Assembly (NCBI GenBank): GCA_003155495.1
Contig: PMDB01000043.1
Coordinates: 1 to 41,963, forward strand
Source of the DNA: Ignavibacteriota bacterium
GTDB lineage: Bacteria; Bacteroidota; Ignavibacteria; UBA10030
Length of the DNA: 41,963 nt
Reading direction: 5' to 3'
The translations under genes and the position numbers were made by a program. The notes beneath the pieces are model-generated. The model was given only the letters and a program-made list of their open reading frames with translations, ran no database searches and was not told the origin of the DNA. Below are positions 1-12,795 of the stretch, piece by piece (positions within the stretch are counted from its first letter, which is position 1; the number at the start of each line of letters is the position of its first letter).

Positions 1-248
1 TCGTCGACCTCGGCCTGGTGTACGACCTCAAGATCGATGATGAAATTCCCGGAGAGGCGAATGTCTTCATCACAATGACTCTGACTGCACCAGGGTGCGG
101 AATGGGTCCACTGATCGCCGCAGACGTCAAGCGCAGGGTTCAGATGGTCCCGGGAGTGACCAATGTGAAGGTCGACCTGACGTTTATGCCGACCTGGAAT
201 CCAAGCATGATGTCTGAAGCAGCGAAGCTGATGCTGAATTTCGGCTGA
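1..248 (+). CDS. MIP18/SufT family (DUF59) protein, 5' end cut off
   Basis: The reading frame is open from base 3 and ends at 248, so only the C-terminal 81 residues or so are present. It begins VDLGLVYD, the conserved 'sLGLiyd' strand of MIP18/PaaD/SufT proteins, followed by MTLTAPGCGMGP with the conserved Cys, and V-PGV-NVKVDLTF typical of the family's last strand. Members act in Fe-S cluster assembly or delivery (SufT) or in phenylacetyl-CoA epoxidase maturation (PaaD). With no suf or paa neighbours visible I cannot choose, though SufT-like is more usual in this kind of genome. The GTG at 18 is internal, not a start. The next gene begins 88 bp downstream. Confidence 0.8.
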   Translation, partial: VDLGLVYDLKIDDEIPGEANVFITMTLTAPGCGMGPLIAADVKRRVQMVPGVTNVKVDLTFMPTWNPSMMSEAAKLMLNFG

Positions 249-336
249 CAGAGGTTTGATGCGGCATGGGACGGTGAAATGCAGAACTTTAGTACCATCA
301 CATAACAGCGACACTTAACACGAAAGGATTCAAGCA

Positions 337-969
337 ATGGCGTACGAATGGAAGTTTAACCCGCGTCCGTATTCAGATGAAGAGGCAAAGAAGCTCCTTG
401 CCGGCGTTGTGAGCCCCGAGACGACGGACTGGCACTACAACACGCACCACAAGGGGTACGTGACGGCGCTGAACAATATCGAGAAGGCGCTCGAGACGGC
501 GGACCGCGCGGGCGCGAACGGCAACTACAGCCAGATCGGCGAGTTGAAACGCAGGACGACCTGGAACCACGCGGGCGCACTGCTCCACGATATCTACTGG
601 GAAGTGCTCGGCGGCGATGGCGATCCGGGCAAGGGGCCAGAAATCAAAGCAGCGATTGAAAAAGAATTCGGTTCGTTCGATGCATGGAAGGCTGATTTCA
701 AAGCATCGGCAGTCTCGGCAAAGTTAAGCGGCTGGGGATTGCTTGTGTTCGATCGCCTGTATTCAGGGCGATTGCTGAACGTAACGGTGGACGAACATCA
801 ATACGGAGCTATCTGGGGTGGAGTGCCTCTGGTTGCCCTTGATGTGTTTGAACATGCATATTATCATAAGGATGGTCCTGCCCGAGCGAAGTACATCGAT
901 AACTTCCTTGCAAATCTTCATTGGGGAAGAATAAATGAGCGGTATAAGAAGTTTATTGTGGGTAAATAA
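337..969 (+). CDS. sodA: Superoxide dismutase, Fe/Mn family
   Basis: This 210-residue cytoplasmic enzyme dismutates superoxide to oxygen and peroxide. The four metal ligands are identifiable: H33 (in WHYNTHHKGY), H84 (LHDIYW), D169 and H173 in the signature DVFEHAYY. SGWGLLVF (131-138) is the usual core strand. No signal peptide is present. An AAAGGA Shine-Dalgarno lies 8-13 bases before the ATG. The metal (Fe, Mn or either) cannot be read safely from sequence. The first half of the gene (to about 640) is visibly more GC-rich than the second half. The gene is followed by a good hairpin terminator, so it is probably monocistronic or the last gene of the upstream unit. Confidence 0.95.
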   Translation: MAYEWKFNPRPYSDEEAKKLLAGVVSPETTDWHYNTHHKGYVTALNNIEKALETADRAGANGNYSQIGELKRRTTWNHAGALLHDIYWEVLGGDGDPGKGPEIKAAIEKEFGSFDAWKADFKASAVSAKLSGWGLLVFDRLYSGRLLNVTVDEHQYGAIWGGVPLVALDVFEHAYYHKDGPARAKYIDNFLANLHWGRINERYKKFIVGK

Positions 970-1007
970 AGTAGAAGGTAAAAAGTAAAAGGTAGAAAGT
1001 AAAAGGT

Positions 1008-1039
1008 AATGGGTTGGGCGGAAGCTCAACCCATTTTTA
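1008..1039 (+). terminator. Rho-independent terminator after sodA
   Basis: AATGGGTTG (1008-1016) pairs perfectly with CAACCCATT (1027-1035) around a 10-base loop, followed by a T-rich tail. Between the sod stop and the hairpin (971-1007) lies a purine-rich quasi-repeat made of GTAGAAGGTAAAA-like units, which is low-complexity and non-coding. Confidence 0.85.
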
Positions 1040-1068
1040 TTTACACGAATACTGGGTTCTCGGTATTG
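1039..1068. promoter_or_regulatory. Palindromic operator-like site, copy 1
   Basis: A 21-nt stretch at 1048-1068 is an imperfect palindrome with outer arms AATAC and GTATT. It is repeated without mismatch at 4759-4779. Including the ATTTAC that precedes both, the shared segment is 30 nt with 3 differences. It lies about 300 bp upstream of the gene at 1369; the other copy also precedes a signalling gene. The symmetry and length suit a binding site of a dimeric regulator, and the NarL/FixJ-type regulator encoded between the two copies is an obvious candidate (inference). The rest of 1069-1368 is AT-rich and shows no gene. Confidence 0.45.
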
Positions 1069-1368
1069 TGTTTCAAGAGGTATATAAATAGAATTACATC
1101 GACAACGTAAAATGGGAGGAATCGTTGACGATGGAGGCTTTGGTGTTATCCTAGTTTGATCAGGATTGTGATCAGCAAAAAAAGGTGAAAAGAATTACAA
1201 TATTTGTAGTATAAATCAGAATATTGTATAACTTAATGGATATATTAAGGTTCCATCTGCTATGCTTATGAAAAAAATGTTTAGGTATCGATCTGTATAT
1301 ATAGTTTGCAGTATTCATGCTTCAAATAATTCACCAATCCCTCAATCATCATACAAGGAGTATCTACC

Positions 1369-1776
1369 ATGAAAAATCCTATTGTGACAGTTGCTATTGT
1401 TATTGTAGTTGCCATAATCGCTTTTTTTGTTGGCCGCCATACTTGTGTCTATAAACCGCAGAAAACAAACTTTCCCGGAGCAGAAAAACATGAAGTCACG
1501 CTCTCCGATGCGGTAAAGTATGTTCAGAATTTTCGGAAATCAAATCCGACAGCGAAAATACATGGCGGATCTTTTCAAAGAGGGATTCTCGATAAGATTT
1601 TAGCGCAATCTGACTGTGATGGTATTCGATATTATTATGCTCAGTTGGAAGATAGTTCGTCTACACTCGTTTTAGTAGGAATTACTGCAAATAGTACCGA
1701 TATGACAAAGGGAGCAGTAGCGGAAATGTCAAAACCTTGCCCACCCTGGTGTGACGCGATGAGTGAACTGCAATAA
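1369..1776 (+). CDS. Membrane-anchored small protein, unknown function
   Basis: 135 residues. An uncleaved-looking N-terminal hydrophobic segment (about 5-22, IVTVAIVIVVAIIAFFVG) is followed by a soluble domain. The domain contains GGSFQRGILDKILAQSDCDG, a strand-rich TLVLVGITA segment, and a C-terminal PCPPWC motif. I recall similar short proteins as common and uncharacterised in Bacteroidota; I do not recognise a named family. The two C-terminal cysteines plus C85 could bind metal or form a disulfide (inference). The start is supported by AAGGAG about 10 bases upstream. The gene is the first of a run with the membrane protein and kinase downstream. Confidence 0.75.
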   Translation: MKNPIVTVAIVIVVAIIAFFVGRHTCVYKPQKTNFPGAEKHEVTLSDAVKYVQNFRKSNPTAKIHGGSFQRGILDKILAQSDCDGIRYYYAQLEDSSSTLVLVGITANSTDMTKGAVAEMSKPCPPWCDAMSELQ

Positions 1777-1802
1777 CAGATATTCAGATAAACCAATATT
1801 CT

Positions 1803-2438
1803 ATGCATGATCCTTTTTTGCTCAATGCATTACTTGTTGTTACGGCAGTTATTGCTGTATGGGCACCATTTCGATGGAAGCAATCAACAAAGGCTCAACA
1901 GTTTCTCATTATTTATGTCATTGAAATATTTATCATAGAGTTTGTTGAAGTTTTGTTAACTTATTTTCATAGACATAATCTTTGGCTAATTTCGATCTCT
2001 ACTTTAGTAGAATTTATTTTAATAGTAATCATATTCTATTATTTGAAAATAAATGAACGTGAAAAATCTTTCTTACTTTTTACAGGTGTGAGTTTTATAA
2101 TATTTTGGCTCATAAGTAAATTCACGTTTGAACCGCTTTCAACATTTAACAGTTATACATCCGTCGTTGCCAGATTGTTCCAAATATCTATATCAGTGTC
2201 TGTATTCTTCGATATTCTCAAGGATCCAAACGTGCGTTTGAAGAATGATCCCAGAATATGGATCGCTTCAGGAATTATGATTTATTCGACAGGAAGTCTT
2301 ATACTTTGCATCCTTTTTCTGGAGATAGCGAAATTACCGCTAGAGGTTTTTAAGACAATCTGGCAAATTAATTTGTTCCTAAACATCGTTTCTGAATTTC
2401 TCTATGCGCGGGGAATATGGTGTCGGGTAACACATTAG
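1803..2438 (+). CDS. Polytopic membrane protein, probable kinase partner
   Basis: 211 residues, mostly hydrophobic, with about six or seven predicted transmembrane segments (near 8-22, 33-55, 62-82, 90-107, 120-137, 152-175, 185-200). There is no recognised domain. Its last 22 bases overlap the start of the downstream histidine kinase, so the two are probably translationally coupled, and the protein may act as the membrane sensor or scaffold for that kinase (inference from overlap only). The ATG at 1803 lies 26 bp after the stop of the preceding gene, with no strong Shine-Dalgarno. Confidence 0.7.
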   Translation: MHDPFLLNALLVVTAVIAVWAPFRWKQSTKAQQFLIIYVIEIFIIEFVEVLLTYFHRHNLWLISISTLVEFILIVIIFYYLKINEREKSFLLFTGVSFIIFWLISKFTFEPLSTFNSYTSVVARLFQISISVSVFFDILKDPNVRLKNDPRIWIASGIMIYSTGSLILCILFLEIAKLPLEVFKTIWQINLFLNIVSEFLYARGIWCRVTH

Positions 2439-4003
2439 ATCTATTGTGGGCGATCAGTATTGCGACTGCTGTACTTCTTTTTTTTTCCGTCAGTATAATT
2501 GTTGTCGTGATCCACAGTAAACGGAAAGAAATTGCAGTAAAAGCAAAACAACTTGAAGAACTAACCCGCAGCGAGAAGAAGTACCGGAGTTTATTTGAAA
2601 ACTCACTTGCGGGAATCGTGAAGTTTTCGTTGGAGACATGGGATGTCTTTGATTCAAACAAAGAAATGAAACAAATATTCGGATGTGCATCCGAACAGGA
2701 ATTAGGACGTTGTTTTTCGGCATTGCCACCGCGAAGCATTCAAGATATTCAGCAATCACTTCTGAGCGGCGACCTCATTCAGGAATATGAGATCAGGACA
2801 ACCCGGCTCGATGGGATGGAATTATGGATTCTCTTCTCAGCAAAAATGATTGGTGAAGAGCACTTCGCGCATGGAGTGATCGTCGATATTACGGAGCGGA
2901 AAGTATCACAAGAGAAGATTTTAGAACAAGCCATGCTTTTAGATGAGGCACAAGATGCCATTATGGTTACAGATTATCAAGGACGAATCACATTCTGGAA
3001 TAACGGAGCAGAACTCATCTATGGCTGGGGGAGAAAACATGCTGTCGGTTCGTTTATCCGAGATCTTATCTTTGAAACTGCACATTCAAAGGATTATGAC
3101 TTAGCAATGGAAGATATACTCCAATTCAACGAATGGAGTGGAGAACAGTATCATCTGAACAGAGAGGGGAAGGAACTGCTTATCCAAAGCAGGTGGAAGA
3201 AAGTGGAGAATGCAGCAACCAACAAGAAGGTCATCTTGATCGTCAACACGGATATCACGGAGAAGAAACGTCAGGAGATACAATTACTTCGTGCACAAAG
3301 AATGGAGAGTATCGCTTTGTTAACAGGCGGCATTGCCCACGATCTCCAAAATGTTCTTGCGCCCGTCTCGATGTCTATCGGCCTACTGCGGGAAAAACTG
3401 ACCGATGGTCCCAGTGTGAAAGTTCTTGATGCCGTTGAAGAAAGTGCCCGGAGCGGCCTCGATCTTATTAGAAATATCATTACCTATGGACATGGGATTC
3501 CCGGTGAGAGGGTAAAAGTTGAACTTTCAGATTTGCTCGAGTCGATCCTTATGATTGTACGACAATCGCTTCCGGACACGATACGTATAGAAAAACTGAC
3601 CGAAGGCAGGAACTCTACTGTACTCGGCGATGCAAATCAATTAAAACAAGTATTTCTGAATATCGTCGTCAACGCGCGTGATGCCATGCCCAATGGTGGA
3701 ATAATAACCATTGGGATCGATAATGTTACTATTGATGAAAATTCCCTCGATCGGTATCTGGAAGCCCAGGTAGGAAAATACCATCTGGTGAATATTCGTG
3801 ATAATGGTTCTGGCATTCCTGAAGACCATATTGAAAGAATTTTTGAGCCATTTTTTACGACAAAGACAAATGGTAACGGCACCGGTCTTGGTCTTTCCAT
3901 TGCGCTCGGTATTGTTAAAAGTCATTCCGGTTTCATTACTGTTCAGAGTGTCGTAGGTCAAGGAACAGAATTTAAAATCTATCTCCCGGCCATTGAATCT
4001 TAA
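2417..4003 (+). CDS. Sensor histidine kinase with two PAS domains
   Basis: 528 residues. One N-terminal membrane helix (about 8-32) is followed by two PAS domains (about 52-162 and 170-283, each ending in a V/I-DITE motif). The dimerisation/phosphoacceptor domain has H308 (GGIAHDLQN). The ATPase domain has an N-box at N419 ([12 protein letters not shown]), DNGSGIP at 462-468, FEPFFTTK and GTGLGL. All catalytic boxes are intact, and no receiver domain is attached. It starts 22 bp inside the preceding membrane-protein gene. The response regulator at 4054 follows after 50 bp, so the two form a conventional two-component pair. The input signal is not evident. Confidence 0.92.
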
Positions 4004-4053
4004 CGCAAGACAGTCAAATTTGAGATAGAAACATACTTTACAAAGGCCGTACG

Positions 4054-4725
4054 ATGAGCTTACAAGAAGACACACAAGAAAGAAGAAAGCGTATTTCCGT
4101 TTGGGTTGTTGACGACAATAAGAGCTTCTGTGTCGTATTGTCTGAAGCATTGAACCGCAGCAATTCGATCATTTGTGAAAAGTATTTTCATTCCAGCCGG
4201 TCGGCTATCGAATATCTTGAAACCAGCAATCTTCATCCACAAGTAATTCTGCTCGACATCAAAATGCCCGGAACGAAAGGTGTGGATGCAATCGCTCTTC
4301 TGAAACGGATTGCCCCTTCTACAGATATTATTATGCTCACGTCGTACGACTTCGATATGGACATACGAACCTCACTCAAAAGAGGTGCGGCTGGATATCT
4401 CCTCAAGTCCTCTCAACCTTTGGACATTATCCGGGCTATTGAAACAGTGCAAAAAGGAGGAACGCCTATCGATCCGATGATCACACAAAGGATGACAGAT
4501 GCTTATATTGCCGGAAAACCTGAGAGTGAATCGTACAATCTCTCAGTTCGGGAACGGGAGGTTATCCGGTGGATCACCCAGGGTCTAAATAGTACGCAAG
4601 TTGCTCAACAACTTTCAATAACCTATAATACGGTTGAAACGCATATCAAGAATATTTTTCATAAACTCAATGTATCCAATCGGCATGCAATGGTTGCCAA
4701 AGCGATTAAGGAGCGGCTGGTCTAA
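4054..4725 (+). CDS. NarL/FixJ-type response regulator
   Basis: 223 residues. An N-terminal receiver domain has the acidic pair D20-D21, phosphoacceptor D68 (LLDIKMPG), T96 and K118. A C-terminal LuxR-type helix-turn-helix follows (about 158-220, LSVREREVIRWI... and VETHIKNIFHKL). It is almost certainly the cognate partner of the kinase ending 50 bp upstream. As a dimeric LuxR-type DNA binder it is a reasonable candidate for the palindromes at 1048-1068 and 4759-4779 that flank this block, which would make the block autoregulated (inference). No clear terminator follows. Confidence 0.93.
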   Translation: MSLQEDTQERRKRISVWVVDDNKSFCVVLSEALNRSNSIICEKYFHSSRSAIEYLETSNLHPQVILLDIKMPGTKGVDAIALLKRIAPSTDIIMLTSYDFDMDIRTSLKRGAAGYLLKSSQPLDIIRAIETVQKGGTPIDPMITQRMTDAYIAGKPESESYNLSVREREVIRWITQGLNSTQVAQQLSITYNTVETHIKNIFHKLNVSNRHAMVAKAIKERLV

Positions 4726-4749
4726 GTCGGTTTTTCCCCATAATTACGT

Positions 4750-4779
4750 ATTTACTTAAATACTGGGTTCTCGGTATTG
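4750..4779. promoter_or_regulatory. Palindromic operator-like site, copy 2
   Basis: The 21-nt palindrome at 4759-4779 is identical to 1048-1068, and the ATTTAC at 4750-4755 is shared as well. It sits 25-55 bp after the response-regulator stop and about 320 bp upstream of the preferred start of the next kinase. A weaker relative, TACTGAGAACC, occurs at about 4873-4883. Confidence 0.45.
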
Positions 4780-4929
4780 ATTCGTATAAGTTTAATTTCG
4801 AAGTTTCAGTAGTCCTCCTCTGCAATAACAATAATTGATTTTTTTAGAAGAGCATACAAGCTCATGCAAGTGTACTGAGAACCTGACGGCAGGCATCCTC
4901 TCTTCGAACGAACGGACGGCATTTGTTCA

Positions 4930-4945
4930 AGAGAACCTATTCTCT
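4930..4945. promoter_or_regulatory. Perfect inverted repeat upstream of kinase
   Basis: AGAGAA CCTA TTCTCT is a perfect 6-bp inverted repeat in the leader of the kinase at 5102. Its GAGAACC core also appears in the reverse complement of the 4759 palindrome, so it may be a further, diverged site. The rest of 4780-5101 shows no gene. An open frame from a TTG at 5003 joins the kinase in frame but lacks a ribosome binding site. Confidence 0.3.
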
Positions 4946-5101
4946 GAATTTGCGGATGGATGAAGAGGCAAGTATACTCTATATGCGACACCACCTGAGT
5001 TTTTGAAAAAGATATTGAAAGGCACACAGAGGCGTAATCCATATCTCCAAAAGTTGAGCAGTGAGATTATAATGAACGAAAACGAAATAAAGAAGGTGAA
5101 T

Positions 5102-6364
5102 ATGAATGAGACAGCAGAAATTTTTAGCGGTCAGATATTTCAGATGAATTATGCAGGCATGAAGTATCAGAACAAGAAAGCAATGTCCGAAGTGATTCAG
5201 GATGACGCCAAGCAGAATAAAATTCAAAGTCAATCTTTCCAATCACAGAAGATGCAGAGCTTGGGTACATTTGCCGGTACTATCGCGCATGATCTTAATA
5301 ATATTTTTGGCACTATTTTGGCATCTTCTACACTCCTCGAGATGAATAAGGTAAGTCCCGAGAAATATTCTGAAATTTTCAAAGCTATCAACAATGCTGT
5401 GGAACGGGGGGCCGAACTTGTGGGACAGATTCTCGCATTCACCGGCAAGATCGATGTTTCATTCAAGCCGCTCTCTATTCCTGATTTTATAAACGACATT
5501 CTTCCTCAGCTCAAGCAAACGTTCCCAGAGAATATCAAATTTCAAGAAATAATAGAACAAAACATTCCCTGCATCGCCGCCGACCGAACAAAGATGCATC
5601 AAATGTTGTTGAATCTCTGTATCAATGCCCGCGATGCGATGCCCGAGGGAGGTACTTTAACCATCAAAGTGAACAGTGTAACACGCCAAGATCTTCAAGT
5701 ACTCTTTCCTAGAGTTAACTATGATCGGTATATCTGTATCAGTATCTCAGATACAGGTACAGGGATAGAAGAAACGGCAAAAGACATGATCTTTGATCCA
5801 TTCTTTACTACAAAAGAAAAAGGAAAAGGTTTGGGGCTTTCTGTTGTCTATGGCATCGTAAAGGCGCATCACGGATTCATTGATTTGGAAAGTGAACCTG
5901 GACATGGAAGTACATTCTATCTTTACTTCCCGCTCATGACCTTAGACAAAAAAAATATTGATTCTTTGCAGATAAAAATGTCGGACGTTGCCGGTGGTGA
6001 AGAAACTATTCTTGTCGTGGAGGATGAGAAGTCTCTTCTGGACCTGGCATGCATGGTGTTCGAATCGAAAGGATACACAGTACTTGCTGCAAAGGACGGC
6101 ATCGAAGCGGTTGAAATGTACAAGCAGCACCGTGATAAGATTGCACTTGTTTTTACCGATATAGGATTGCCGGGGCTCAACGGGAGGCAAGTGTTTACGA
6201 AGTTGAAGGAAATGAATCCCTCTGTGAAAGTTATTTTTACGAGCGGCATCTTTACTGATATCAAAGCTGCACTTTTAAAAGACGGAGCCAAAGATTTTAT
6301 TCAAAAACCATATAAGCAAGAATATGTTCTGCGAAAGATCAGAGAAGTGCTGGATGCATTATGA
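5102..6364 (+). CDS. Soluble hybrid histidine kinase-receiver
   Basis: I place the start at ATG 5102 because AGAAGG lies five bases upstream. In-frame alternatives are ATG 5072 and TTG 5003, both with weak ribosome sites. From 5102 the protein has 420 residues: a short polar leader, phosphoacceptor H63 (GTIAHDLNN), ATPase boxes (N175 in [33 protein letters not shown]), then a receiver with D353 (FTDIGLPG) and K402. There is no PAS, cache or membrane segment, so it has no evident sensor of its own and may take input from a partner. The ATPase and receiver closely resemble those of the 1093-residue kinase at 7916, suggesting common origin. Confidence 0.88.
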   Translation: MNETAEIFSGQIFQMNYAGMKYQNKKAMSEVIQDDAKQNKIQSQSFQSQKMQSLGTFAGTIAHDLNNIFGTILASSTLLEMNKVSPEKYSEIFKAINNAVERGAELVGQILAFTGKIDVSFKPLSIPDFINDILPQLKQTFPENIKFQEIIEQNIPCIAADRTKMHQMLLNLCINARDAMPEGGTLTIKVNSVTRQDLQVLFPRVNYDRYICISISDTGTGIEETAKDMIFDPFFTTKEKGKGLGLSVVYGIVKAHHGFIDLESEPGHGSTFYLYFPLMTLDKKNIDSLQIKMSDVAGGEETILVVEDEKSLLDLACMVFESKGYTVLAAKDGIEAVEMYKQHRDKIALVFTDIGLPGLNGRQVFTKLKEMNPSVKVIFTSGIFTDIKAALLKDGAKDFIQKPYKQEYVLRKIREVLDAL

Positions 6365-6466
6365 ATGCATTCATCAGACCCAAAACGCATTACGGATTTT
6401 AGTTGAAGATTGGTTCAAACAGAGCAAGAGGTACTGACTTATACCATATTCGAAAATGTATTTTAT

Positions 6467-6541
6467 AATCCCCTCTCCGCACCAAAGGCACATTTACCTC
6501 TGGCGTAAATCTCCCCCTCGGGGGAGGGGAGAGGAGGGGAT
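6467..6541. repeat. Composite palindromic repeat, CCCTCTCC type
   Basis: Nested hairpins: outer ATCCCCTCTCC (from about 6468) against GGAGAGGAGGGGAT-like sequence (to 6541), inner ATTTAC/GTAAAT (6492-6510), and CTCCCCC/GGGGGAG (511-517 with 520-526 of 6 kb). The same CCCTCTCC/GGAGAGGG theme recurs at 28001 and 38121. The remainder of 6365-6767 shows no gene. It is the converging 3' side of the kinase (plus) and the LacI-like gene (minus), and the hairpins could terminate either. Confidence 0.6.
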
Positions 6542-6767
6542 ATTGTGGAAACAAGAAGAGATCGAGGTTAAGAGATATTAAGATTCAAAGAGGTCCAAAT
6601 TCAAAATCTTTCTTTCATGTTTCTATCTGGAATACATGATGAGGCATTGCGATGGGCAAGATTCTCATGAAGGTTTTTAATAACTTCGACACCGCAGCGC
6701 AGGTGAACTGACATTTCAGATAGAACAATTCGCGAATACTATTCTTTTGCCACTCGCTATCAAGATT

Positions 6768-7595
6768 TTATGCCGATTGGCGAACTACGAGTTCAGGTTT
6801 GAACATCATCCGTTGGGGCTTACGAAGAATTTCATTTCTGTGTACTACAGCCAACTTGTATGCTGCCTCTGCCATCTCGTTCAAAGGTTGTCTGATAGTA
6901 GTAAGTTTAGGGGTTGATAGCTGTGCTATGAGCAGGTCATCGAAGCCCATAATTGCGATGTCCTCAGGAATTCGTACTCCCTGTTCTCTGGCTACAGATA
7001 GCAATCCTAACGCGCAGTTATCACCTGCCGCGCAAAAGATAGCATCCACGCCTTTGTGCAACAACTTCGGCATTACAGAGATGCCGTCCTCACGAGAGTA
7101 GTGGGTCACCTCGATCATGCACTCTGGCAAAATGGAGAGCTTTCCTGCGCTGAGCGCTTGTTGAAACCCTTTGATCCTTTGTTCCGCATTATAACTACCC
7201 TGCATATGAGTTTTGCCGGAGACAATGGCGATCTTCTTTTTGCCTTTTGCGATGAGGTACTCACCGGCTATTTGTCCACCCAAGCGGTTATCCGTAGTAA
7301 TGGTGGACACACCGGCTGTTTCTTCATCTATCAGTACGATGGGTACATCGGCAGCGGTGTAGGCGGCAATCGTATCAGAATCCGGTCGCACACTAATAGC
7401 GATCAAGGCACTGGGGTTTGTCTGAACGAGTGCTTGCTTCAAGCGCTCCTTCTGCATGCCAGCATCGTCTGTCACAGATCGTCGTGCAATCTCCTCTGGC
7501 TTAAGCCAATTCTTGAGATGTTCAGATATCGCAATTTGTAACGCCGATCCGAAGTTCGGTGCCGCGACTACAACTTTCGTCTCTCGGTTTGCCAT
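6768..7595 (-). CDS. LacI-type periplasmic-binding-fold regulator lacking an HTH
   Basis: 275 residues corresponding to only the ligand-binding core of LacI/GalR regulators. It starts directly with the first strand (TKVVVAAPNFG) and continues through PIVLIDEETAGVSTITTDNRLGG, the effector-binding/dimerisation region, to VRIPEDIAIMGFDD and PKLTTIRQP. The usual 50-60 residue N-terminal HTH and hinge are absent, and no signal peptide is present, so it should be a cytosolic sugar or nucleoside sensor without its own DNA-binding part. The start is firm: on the minus strand AGGAGA lies about 10 bases before the ATG, and no in-frame HTH is encoded upstream. It is divergent from the hybrid kinase at 7916. 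Confidence 0.82.
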   Translation of the reverse strand: MANRETKVVVAAPNFGSALQIAISEHLKNWLKPEEIARRSVTDDAGMQKERLKQALVQTNPSALIAISVRPDSDTIAAYTAADVPIVLIDEETAGVSTITTDNRLGGQIAGEYLIAKGKKKIAIVSGKTHMQGSYNAEQRIKGFQQALSAGKLSILPECMIEVTHYSREDGISVMPKLLHKGVDAIFCAAGDNCALGLLSVAREQGVRIPEDIAIMGFDDLLIAQLSTPKLTTIRQPLNEMAEAAYKLAVVHRNEILRKPQRMMFKPELVVRQSA

Positions 7596-7915
7596 ATCGG
7601 TAATCTCCTTTCAAATTGTACACAACACATCTGAAAGAATACTACCAAAAAAGAACTCTGAAAGCAAACTACAAAATCCGAAATATCGACATCTTGATTT
7701 TCATTGAAAGACTCGTTACTCTAGTGCACAAAACAGCAAAATATAATACTTTATAGAGGAATGAGATAAAAGAGCATGCACACATGTAAGTTACTTCGAA
7801 TGGCTGTCCGATTAGATTTCCCTTTTAGGCACCTGGTATTTCCCCAGTTTCTCTCCTTCTTCAATATTGTATTTCCTATAGAGAGTACGAATACCGCATT
7901 GTTAAGAGTGTAAGT
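7596..7915. other. Divergent promoter region, no gene seen
   Basis: A 320-bp AT-rich region between the minus-strand LacI-like gene and the plus-strand hybrid kinase. It must hold both promoters, but I could not fix convincing -35/-10 pairs or a clear operator. No convincing small open frame was found. Confidence 0.5.
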
Positions 7916-10900
7916 ATGGGAAAGAAAAATCGTCGCCTTCATGCATTCTACCTCATGAGTATTTTTGTTCTCTTTGCCATCGGCCTTTCATTAGCGGGAT
8001 ATTTCTATTATTACCAGCAAAAGCAGAGACTGCTGCAATTGGCAAAAGATAATCTATCATCTATTGCAAAGCTCAAGGGTGGACAGATAGAGAATTGGCG
8101 CCAAGAGAGATTCAATGATGCGAGTTTCATTTTCCATAGCGATGCAATTTCTCTGCAATTTGAACAATTTCTTAAGAACCCGAATAGCCGAAAAGAACGC
8201 GCTGCGATGCTTGGCTGGATGACGCCAATGTTCAAGAATCGGCAATATGTCAGTATGGATATCTTCAGCAAGAGTGGCAGTCATCTCTTTTGTATTCTCG
8301 ATGACTCATGCAAAGCTAGTGTGTACGAAAAAGATATCTTCGCTGAGGCAATTCGCACAAAAAAAGTATTGTTTGCCGATCTCCATGTGCATGATGATGG
8401 AAGAGTGTATATGGGACTTGTTGTACCTATTATCAAGATTGATAAAAAGGATACCACAGTGCTAGGATCGTTGCTCTTGCGCATTGATCCATGGCGGTTT
8501 CTCTATCCGCTCATTCATTCATGGCCAGTCATAAGTAAGACGTCGGAGACTTTGATTATTCGGAGAGAAGGAGATGAGGTTGTTTATCTGAATGAATTGC
8601 GGCATCGAAGGGAAAAAAATCTTGTTCTGAGAATGTCAATTAACGAGAAGAAATTACCGGCAGCAATTGCTGCACGCGGGTACGAAGGTGTAGTAGAGGG
8701 AATAGATTATCGGCAAGAAGAGGTCGTAGCTGCAGTGCGACAAATCTCGAATTCCCCGTGGTATATGGTAGCAAAGACGGATGTTGAGGAGGTTCTGGCT
8801 GAGAATACACGCATAGCAATAGGAGTCACGTCGGTCACTGCGCTTATTCTTCTTCTGCTTGCAAGTGGTATACGCATGATCTGGAAAGAGCAAGAGGTCA
8901 AGCAATATCAAGTGTTGTTAGAGTCGCAACAGGAGCGACAGGCACTCATTCAACATTTTGATTATCTCATGAGGTATGCCAACGATGTCATTTTTCTTTC
9001 GAATGAAGAACAGCGCATCATCGAGGCGAATGAACGAGCAGAGCACATCTACGGATATAGTCATGAGGAATTACTGCAGTTATACATGACGGACATATGG
9101 CAGACCAAAACGCCTTCTGACCTTCATGAAAGATTGAAGTCGATGATGACTCCAAGCGGGGCATTGTATGAAACATACCATCGACGAAAAGATGGTTCAG
9201 TATTTCCCGTGGAGATCAGCGGCCGTACTATCACCATCGAGGGGAAAATATATGTTCAGGAAATCATACGAGATATTACGGAACGAAAGGAGGCGGAGAA
9301 AGCATTGCGGGAGCGTGAGAAGCAGCTTCTGTTAGTTACTGATAATTTCCCTGGCCTTGTATCCACTGTCGATAAAGATCTCCGCTACCGGTTTGCCAGT
9401 GCCGGGCATGAACGTATATTCGGTATATTGTCGGTAGATGTTGTGGGCCTCACGATGCGGGAAGTTCTTGGCAATGAAACTTTCAAGCAAGTTGAGCCTT
9501 ATATCAAGCAGACGTTTGCTGGTGAACAAGTAACATTTGTAAACCCGATCAAAACACCGATCGGCGAAGTGTCGTATGAACTTACTACCTATATTCCTGA
9601 TACTACTGTAGAGGGAAAAGTACAAGGCATGTTCATCTTTGCAATCGATATCAATGAACGAATAGAGATGGAAGATGCGCTGCGCAGGGCAGAAGAGAAC
9701 TTTCGCCGTTCCTTAGATGATTCACCGTTGGGAGTACGTATAGTATCATCGGCGGGTGAGACATCGTATGCCAACCAAGCGATTCTGGATATCTATGGGT
9801 ACAGCAACCATGAAGAATTGAAAAGAACACCTATTAAGGAACGATATACACCGGAAAGCTATGATGAGTTCAGAAAAAGAAAAGAACAAAGAGATAGGGG
9901 TGAGTTTGGCCCGACTGAATATGAAATAAGTATTGTGAGGAAAGATGGGGAAGTGCGGCATGTTCAGGTTTTCCGCAAGGAAGTGTTTTGGAATGGCACA
10001 AAACAGTTTCAAGTCATCTATCAGGATATCACCCAGCGCAAGATGTTAGAAGAGCCTCTGCGACGGATGCAGAAATTGGAAGGATTGGGAACGCTTGCAG
10101 GTGGTATTGCCCATGACTTTAATAATATTCTTGGAATTATTTTGGGATATGTTTCACGTATCCTTATTGTTAAAAACGATCCAGAAAAACTACAACATAG
10201 TATTGAAATCATTACGAAAGCGGTTGACCGAGGAACGGCGCTTGTGCGGCAAATATTAACCTTTGCGAGAAAAACGGAGACAGAATTTCGTTGGGTGAAT
10301 GTTAATACTGTTGCAAAGGAAGTTATGGGAATGATCATGGAAACGTTTCCAAAAACTATTGTGTATTCGCAGAATCTCGAAAAAGAAATTCCTTCTATCT
10401 ATGCCGATCATTCGCAGTTGCATCAAGCGCTGTTAAATCTCTGTGTCAATGCACGTGATGCGATGCAGAGTGGAGGTGTTCTGACCATCAATACGAGCAT
10501 GCTTGCTGGGTTGAGTGTGCACAATCGACACCCTGATGCTGTTGCTGATAGTTACATCTGTATTGAAGTTGTCGATAACGGTACAGGGATGGCTGCAGAG
10601 GTTCGGAACAGAATCTTTGAGCCGTTTTTCACTACGAAAGAAAAAGGAAAGGGAACCGGATTGGGATTAGCCGTTGTGTTTGGCATTGTTCAAACCCACC
10701 ACGGATTTATTGATGTGGAAAGTGAGCTTGGTAAAGGGGCGACCTTCCGGTTATATTTGCCTGTCTCGGACGATAGAGAGCATTTAGAAGCAGCGAAGAA
10801 AGAAACGATAGAAGAGATTCCCGGAGGTACAGAAACTTTATTGATCGTAGAGGATGAGACGGCATTAAATGAGAATCTTAATGATGTACTTACAGGAAAA

Positions 10901-11197
10901 GGATATACGGTTCTTTCCGCTTTTGACGGCTTGATTGCAGTGAATATCTACACAGAACGGCAAAAAGAGATTGCACTGGTGCTCACAGACCTTGGATTAC
11001 CTAAGCTGACCGGTATGGAGGTATTTAAACGGATCAGGCAACTCAATCCGAATGTTCGGATCATCGTTGCAACAGGGTATCTGGATCCGGAAATGAGATC
11101 GGAATTGCTGAAAGCAGGTATACAAAAGTTTATCTACAAACCTTATAACCCGAAAGAAGTCCTCAAGGTGATTCGGGAAGTGTTGGATGATAAGTGA
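7916..11197 (+). CDS. Large hybrid sensor histidine kinase
   Basis: 1093 residues. Transmembrane helix at about 13-33, an extracytoplasmic cache-like sensor (about 34-297, ending [16 protein letters not shown]), and a second helix at about 300-320. Three PAS domains follow (about 345-457, 470-582, 595-707), each closing with a DIT/DIN motif. The phosphoacceptor is H733 (GGIAHDFNN). ATPase boxes are N845 ([12 protein letters not shown]), [24 protein letters not shown]. The C-terminal receiver has D1025 (LTDLGLPK) and K1075. All catalytic residues are present. The internal receiver suggests a phosphorelay, but no Hpt protein or orphan output regulator lies nearby. It is divergent from the HTH-less LacI-like gene, which could share its signal (inference). 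Confidence 0.92.
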
Positions 11198-11349
11198 ATC
11201 GATGAGTCTTCACCAAGGAAACTTCGGAAAGTATCTTAGTTTAACCTTGATAACTTTCCTGTAGGAGTACAGAAATTGCTCCTCTCGGAAGAATTTGGTA
11301 TTATATCACAACAAATGAGTAAAAATATGTCACCTTCGATTTTCCCTGA

Positions 11350-12795
11350 ATGAAAGAACAATGCAGGTTGTATCATTCGATCGTTTTCTGTTTGTGCGTT
11401 GTCTTGCAGCTTCAAGCACAATCGACGCTGGAATTAAAATTCATTTCTAAGGTTTCGCAAAAAAATTTACAGAAAAATGTGCACGAACTGGTCAAGTTTG
11501 GTAACCGGCTTGGTGGAACAAAATCCGGTGATACAGCTGCACGGTACATATTTGAAAAATTTAAAGGCTATGGATTAAAACCGGAAATAATACATGACCC
11601 CCAAAAGCTTTCATATTCAAACGACGCTTGGCAGTTAAAGATTGATCGGCCCAGGCGGCTGCGCGGACTCATTCAGCATGAGTGGTTAGCGGGATTCTCA
11701 CCTTCTGCTCGGAGAGACACTGTTCATCTCACTTTTGTCGGAACCATTCGAGATATAGATACAAGAACGATGGATCGCGGCGCAGTACTATTAGAACGGC
11801 AGCCTTCAGAAAAAATGTATGATGAATTAGTCGATGCTGGTGCACGTTGTATTGTCAGTTACCAGAATGATATTTCGAATTCCTATTCTAACTGGGCAAT
11901 GATCTCGACCCTCAAAGAAACGGATAAGAATCAGATTCCGGTCTTTAATATCTCGAATAATGCAGGACGACGATTGGAAGAGGAATTGGAGAAGGGGACG
12001 CACGTTGTCATCAAATATTCAGCAAGGACGACAATCCGACATGGAAATTCGAAGACAATTATCGCCACCTTGAAGGGGCAGACCGATGAATATTATATTC
12101 TCAGTGCGCATGGCGATTCCGACTCCGGCGGGCCCGGCGCAGATGACAACGCATCGGGTGTGTCAGGTATATTAGAAGTCGCGCGTATCTTCAACACGAT
12201 GGTGAAAAATAAGACACTGCCATTACCAAAAAAAAGTATCAAGTTTATCGTTTGGGGTACGGAATATCATTCATCGAGCAGTTATGTCAAACTTCATACT
12301 GATCGTCTGGAGAAGATTGCAGGCGTTATCAACTTCGATGAGATTGGAATCGGGAAGTCAAGGCGTTGTATTTATTTTGAAGGAAACGATATTCAGCATA
12401 ATCATGACTTATTGAAAATATTTGAGCGAGTGGGCGAGGATTATGTAAACAAAAATGGATTCTGGAAGGAAGCAACTACAACTCCTTCACAAGGCGGAAC
12501 TGATTCGTATGTGTTTCTGCCAAAATATCTAGAGTATTTAGGTGTATCGGAGGGAAAAATTCCATCGATCACAGTCTTCACAGCAGCATGGAACGAACCA
12601 AAGTCAATGCAGCAAACACGAGGATGGCGTTCGAAAGCATGGAGGGGTCATCCCGATTCGGTAAACATTGATTACTCGCCGTACTATCACTCGTCGCTTG
12701 ATATTCCAGCGTTGACAACAGATAAAGAACCGTCGAATATGGTATGGGGTGTCAATGCAGTTGGCATTGCGCTTATTCGATTGCTTTGGCAATAA
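11350..12795 (+). CDS. Secreted M28-family peptidase-like protein
   Basis: 481 residues with an N-terminal signal peptide (hydrophobic 10-22, probable cleavage after LQAQ). A PA-like insert occupies about 120-225, and an M28 Zn-peptidase domain occupies 235-481. Likely zinc ligands are H254 (SAHGDSD), D266 (ADDNASG), E305 (WGTEYHSS), D330 (NFDEIG) and H447 (YYHSSLD). In the usual M28 motif two glutamates are adjacent, the first being the general base. Here that position is T304, so catalysis may be altered or lost. It probably acts outside the cytoplasmic membrane on peptides. The zinc-ribbon gene follows after 2 bp, so it heads the folP-miaA cluster. The ATG has a weak ribosome site. Confidence 0.85.

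Follow-up and report, generated by a model that had tools for sequence, protein, structure and literature searches.

Two identical copies of an inverted repeat bracket a two-component module in the Ignavibacteriota DNA examined here, and both are very probably binding sites through which the NarL-type response regulator encoded at 4054 to 4725 acts on its own operon, and on a hybrid kinase gene beginning at 5102, as an activator of class-II type. Activation of its own operon is a firm prediction from the comparative evidence, and control of the hybrid kinase is a weaker but plausible one. What can be read directly from the DNA is the identity of the two copies, their scarcity, their conservation together with the regulator, a fixed spacing to a −10-like sequence, and the 7-2-7 layout of the repeat. 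From these observations we infer that the regulator binds both copies, that it activates from them, and that the second copy drives the kinase gene. Positions refer to the window, meaning the whole stretch of 41,963 nucleotides that was analysed; genomes compared with it are identified by number (G000 and so on). The features concerned are as follows.

1008 to 1035, plus strand: terminator-like hairpin, 3′ of an Fe/Mn superoxide dismutase gene (337 to 969)
1048 to 1068, plus strand: site 1, predicted regulator site carrying the 7-2-7 inverted repeat TACTGGG-TT-CTCGGTA at 1050 to 1065, with flanks AA and TTG
1089 to 1094, plus strand: predicted −10 box TAGAAT, separated by a 17-bp spacer from the −35-like TTGTGT (1066 to 1071)
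1369 to 1776, plus strand: small membrane-anchored protein of no recognised family, first gene of the operon
1803 to 2438, plus strand: integral membrane protein of no recognised family
2417 to 4003, plus strand: histidine kinase with PAS, HisKA and HATPase domains
4054 to 4725, plus strand: NarL-type response regulator with REC and GerE HTH domains (Pfam), predicted binder of both sites
4759 to 4779, plus strand: site 2, a 21-mer identical to site 1, 33 nt past the regulator stop codon
4800 to 4805, plus strand: GAAGTT, a degenerate form of the −10 box, at the conserved spacing behind site 2
5102 to 6364, plus strand: sensorless hybrid kinase (HisKA-HATPase-REC); the longest ORF start is at 5003 (TTG)

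Results

The palindrome occurs twice in the genome

The 21-mer AATACTGGGTTCTCGGTATTG is present in identical form at 1048 to 1068 and at 4759 to 4779, and 28 of 31 bases agree when the match is extended (1038 to 1068 versus 4749 to 4779), as a preliminary description of this DNA had claimed. The genome-wide motif search proposed there as a check was run on the 3.59-Mb genome (3,585,865 bases, 97% complete). When up to three mismatches to a 20-mer were allowed, only the two window copies were recovered, both of them intergenic, and 100 dinucleotide shuffles of the window yielded zero matches at the same threshold. Because the shuffles are empty and the genome holds only two copies, the palindrome is neither a chance occurrence nor a dispersed repeat.

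The same copy count excludes, for this genome, a derivation of the two sites from a mobile or REP-like repeat. G015 and G028 do have similar sites close to a Y1_Tnp-like protein and a tyrosine integrase, but the similarity between the window copies is confined to 31 bp, and in diverged relatives the orientation, the gene context and the distance to the −10-like box are all unchanged, which makes a mobile origin exceedingly improbable.

Site 1 begins 12 nt past the stem of the terminator-like hairpin, which is kept together with its T-tract in G001 and G002. Site 2 lies about 320 nt before the start of the hybrid kinase gene at 5102. The earlier view that each copy lies upstream of a signalling gene needs amending for site 1, where the first gene, at 1369, encodes the small membrane-anchored protein, which is no recognised signalling protein, and the kinase of the operon begins only at 2417. 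Two further strings that had been described near site 2, TACTGAGAACC (4873) and AGAGAACCTATTCTCT (4930), are indeed present, but the two nearest module-bearing relatives have neither of them at the orthologous locus. The half-site at 4873 and the AGAGAA/TTCTCT repeat at 4930 were dropped as functional parts for this lack of conservation.

Two other sequence features were observed in the intergenic regions. An A+G-rich near-repeat (GTAGAAGGTAAAAAGTAAAAGGTAGAAAGTAAAAGGTAA) occupies 970 to 1008, between the dismutase stop codon and the terminator-like hairpin, and the region at about 6470 to 6540 (CCCCTCTCC...CCCCCTCGGGGGAGGGGAGAGGAGGGG) resembles a long imperfect hairpin and is possibly a dispersed repeat.

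The module encodes a regulator that resembles NarL

The regulator carries a REC domain (Pfam PF00072, 1.3e-19) followed by a GerE/LuxR-type HTH domain (PF00196, 1.2e-17), the order of domains that defines the NarL family. Its closest solved relative is E. coli NarL (1a04, E 5e-25), with VraR second. Its score against the NCBIfam NarL equivalog model is 107 bits, below the curated cut-off of 250; the protein probably works like NarL yet is not NarL. Its recognition helix has E in place of K188 and T in place of V189 of NarL, which we take to be DNA-contact positions; with both changed, the specificity of NarL does not transfer directly.

The two membrane proteins at 1369 and 1803 matched nothing in Pfam or NCBIfam, and the kinase gene at 2417 overlaps the second of them. 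Homologues of the protein at 1369 stand first in most orthologous operons. This protein contains conserved GIRYYYA, LVLVG and CPPxC-type motifs and is a candidate sensor part.

The sites are conserved together with the regulator

Orthologues of the regulator (50 to 93% identity) were found in 9 of 32 genomes of the family and in two genomes of another family, G082 and G091. A palindrome of like design lies about 30 to 37 nt behind the regulator gene in G000, G001, G002, G013, G015, G025, G028, G029, G030 and G082, and a matching site precedes the operon, where this region is assembled, in G000, G001, G002, G013, G025, G028, G029, G030 and G082. In G091, whose orthologue is 51% identical, no recognisable site was seen in the region examined around it. 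Among the family genomes, the composite site (the repeat with its −10-like box) is present in 9 of 9 with the regulator orthologue and in 2 of 23 without it (Fisher p = 2e-6, a statistic that, like the other cross-genome comparisons, is not fully independent because the genomes share ancestry). The inner bases of the palindrome vary between genomes, and paired sites differ by a mean of 1.3 positions within a genome versus 4.3 between genomes (permutation p = 0.0005, non-redundant genomes). This greater likeness within genomes would be expected of a pair of sites read by a single protein.

The reader could in principle be another NarL-family regulator of the cell. The genome holds dozens of response-regulator candidates (79 at first look), and in G031, G041 and G066 sites of this type flank NarL-type regulators other than this one. 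However, the presence of the site tracks the orthologue of the regulator at 4054, and the genome of the window is without a convincing third site, so we consider another reader quite improbable.

Conservation of the wider locus was also compared. Within the same genus, G004 and G005 have the dismutase gene, then other inserts, then the genes that start at window position 11350, and they have neither the module nor its sites. The stretch from 970 to 11350, bounded by the dismutase gene on one side and the gene at 11350 on the other, appears as a variable module that these two genomes (L198, L199) either lack or have replaced with other inserts. A peptide-pattern search of named genomes returned two close loci, in an ‘Ignavibacteriae bacterium’ and a ‘Bacteroidetes bacterium’ MAG, plus distant ones. 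A literature search for this motif in the bacterial group found no paper.

The repeat has a NarL-type layout and adjoins a predicted promoter

The consensus of the sites, TACCGnG-TT-CnCGGTA followed by TTG, is a 7-2-7 inverted repeat, which is the binding architecture of NarL: TACYGnG-TT-CnCGGTA contains two 7-base inverted elements, a 2-bp spacer, and TAC and GTA ends. The outer three pairs are invariant among 20 distinct sites. For a position-wise comparison, 23 sites were picked with their downstream sequence ignored. All 23 share GGTATTG, partly owing to how the sites were picked. A second block of information is found at +42 to +47, where TAnnnT occurs in 18 of the 23 sites, compared with at most 3 of 23 at the other offsets tested. 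We read this block as the −10 box of a predicted promoter, with a 17-bp spacer behind a −35-like hexamer that starts with the TTG. The fixed distance to the −10-like TAnnnT therefore places the site against the −35 element, centred at about −43.5 if transcription starts 7 nt past the −10 box.

Site 1 has this class-II-type activator layout, in that it adjoins the predicted −35 region or overlaps it, and TTGTGT is followed at 17 bp by TAGAAT; the corresponding −10 box is TAGAAT in G001 and TAAAAT in G002. Behind site 2 of the window there is no proper −10 box, and the expected place is taken by GAAGTT, with GAnGTT also in G001 and G002; this form is that of the window's genus, and TAnnnT stands there in other genomes. 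Beyond their TTG, the −35-like hexamers of the window are poor (TTGTGT and TTGATT).

A palindrome in this position could instead serve as a repression operator for negative autoregulation, since some regulators repress by excluding RNA polymerase from the −35 region that the palindrome adjoins or overlaps. The known examples speak for activation. In E. coli, a NarL dimer occupies a 7-2-7 repeat; yeaR is activated through one such site immediately before the −35 element, and an ogt derivative through one whose centre is at −44.5 (PMC7419079, PMC4549865), whereas at frdA, an example of NarL repression, the 7-2-7 site is near the start site (PMC4549865). The position at about −43.5 agrees with the first two promoters, and the poor −35 hexamers resemble those of activator-dependent promoters. 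Thus, repression by the same regulator is unlikely.

We also considered whether the element acts as RNA, as a terminator, attenuator or processing site formed by a hairpin in the transcript. The isolated 20-mer folds into a hairpin of eight pairs, two of them G-U (z = −3.7). In longer contexts the folding is unremarkable (z of −1.55 and −0.47), and 10 of the 20 distinct sites carry a mismatch at one inner pair; for these two reasons the RNA reading is rejected. It is made very improbable also by the lack of a T-tract after the palindrome, by the location of the palindrome upstream of the predicted start site, and by an Rfam search of positions 1 to 12000 that gave no match.

The predicted regulon is small in this genome and larger in relatives

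When the composite pattern was searched over 100 genomes, it gave 87 matches, versus 8 for the reversed control. In the genome of the window it recovers the two sites and one weaker match on C114, at a place that is coding sequence by ORF listing. With one extra spacer base, real matches in this genome are no more numerous than those of the control. A looser pattern with two mismatches gave 64 matches versus 34 controls, and its weak candidates (L083 to L087) were rejected because they resemble coding sequence (two were checked by ORF listing). As judged by these searches, the regulon here would consist essentially of two promoters rather than a genome-wide set. The regulon of the NarL-type regulator suggested in the preliminary description thus gains good comparative support from the 7-2-7 layout, the 9 of 9 versus 2 of 23 distribution and the fixed −10-like spacing, and is reduced in extent to this pair.

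Larger numbers are found in related species, with about ten composite matches each in G013 and G028, of a sister genus, and several in G015, of another genus. Genes behind some of these sites encode a tyrosine integrase (assigned by Pfam in one genome, with a similar protein in G013), and others encode large helicase-like and TonB-receptor-like proteins and further kinases, named from sequence reading. Similar tyrosine-recombinase-like proteins are found at L149 and L071, in G013 and G028, about 170 to 200 nt behind an exact composite site. Their occurrence behind exact sites in both genomes suggests that the regulon of this genus includes an integrase. At L076, L077 and L080, the same palindrome type lies beside a different NarL-type regulator, and the neighbouring kinase at L076 has Reg_prop and Y_Y_Y domains. 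The motif class is therefore wider than the system of the window.

It is conceivable, although we hold it to be doubtful, that the promoter module spreads by site gain, from a two-promoter circuit in the genus of the window to about ten promoters of site plus core in the sister genus, before unrelated genes that include an integrase and restriction-like helicases. The copy that trails the regulator gene would then be kept even without a kinase, possibly to drive a small RNA.

Discussion

The circuit that these data favour would operate as follows. Phosphorylation of the regulator by the kinase at 2417 would presumably be the trigger. Two regulator molecules would bind the repeat TACYGnG-TT-CnCGGTA centred near −43.5, where it adjoins or overlaps the −35 element of a sigma-70-like promoter (TTG, 17-bp spacer, TAnnnT), and would recruit RNA polymerase in the class-II manner. 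At site 1, the operon 1369-1803-2417-4054 would thereby be under positive self-control, and at site 2 expression of the sensorless hybrid kinase would be raised.

The link to the hybrid kinase, also part of the preliminary description, is the weaker arm. Orthologues of this kinase sit directly downstream of site 2 in G001 and G002. Site 2 is kept in some relatives in which a search directly behind it found no kinase, namely G025, G029 and G030 (the contigs of G029 and G030 are gapped or end at this point). Because of the GAnGTT at the −10 position and these three genomes, control of the kinase is put forward as plausible.

For an uncharacterised two-component system, in a bacterial group known largely from metagenomes, the analysis predicts a DNA target, drawn solely from conservation and promoter geometry, and a small regulon that can be tested. 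The composite pattern could also serve the study of how regulons grow and shrink, because it matches apparent larger regulons in related species.

The circuit is clean but ordinary, of the kind expected in bacteria. As at yeaR-yoaG and ogt of E. coli, a single 7-2-7 repeat with TAC and GTA ends stands beside a −35 element. Unlike those promoters, the inner bases are TACCGnGTTCnCGGTA here versus TACCCCTAAAGGGGTA in an engineered NarL site, the recognition helix differs, and the predicted targets belong to the system itself and not to the nitrate response. The arrangement also resembles autoregulated two-component operons with a NarL/FixJ-type regulator, in that a predicted regulator site precedes the regulator's own kinase-regulator operon. 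It departs from them in two respects: the operon is headed by two unfamiliar membrane proteins, and the site recurs in identical form past the regulator gene, ahead of a separate hybrid kinase that lacks a sensor domain.
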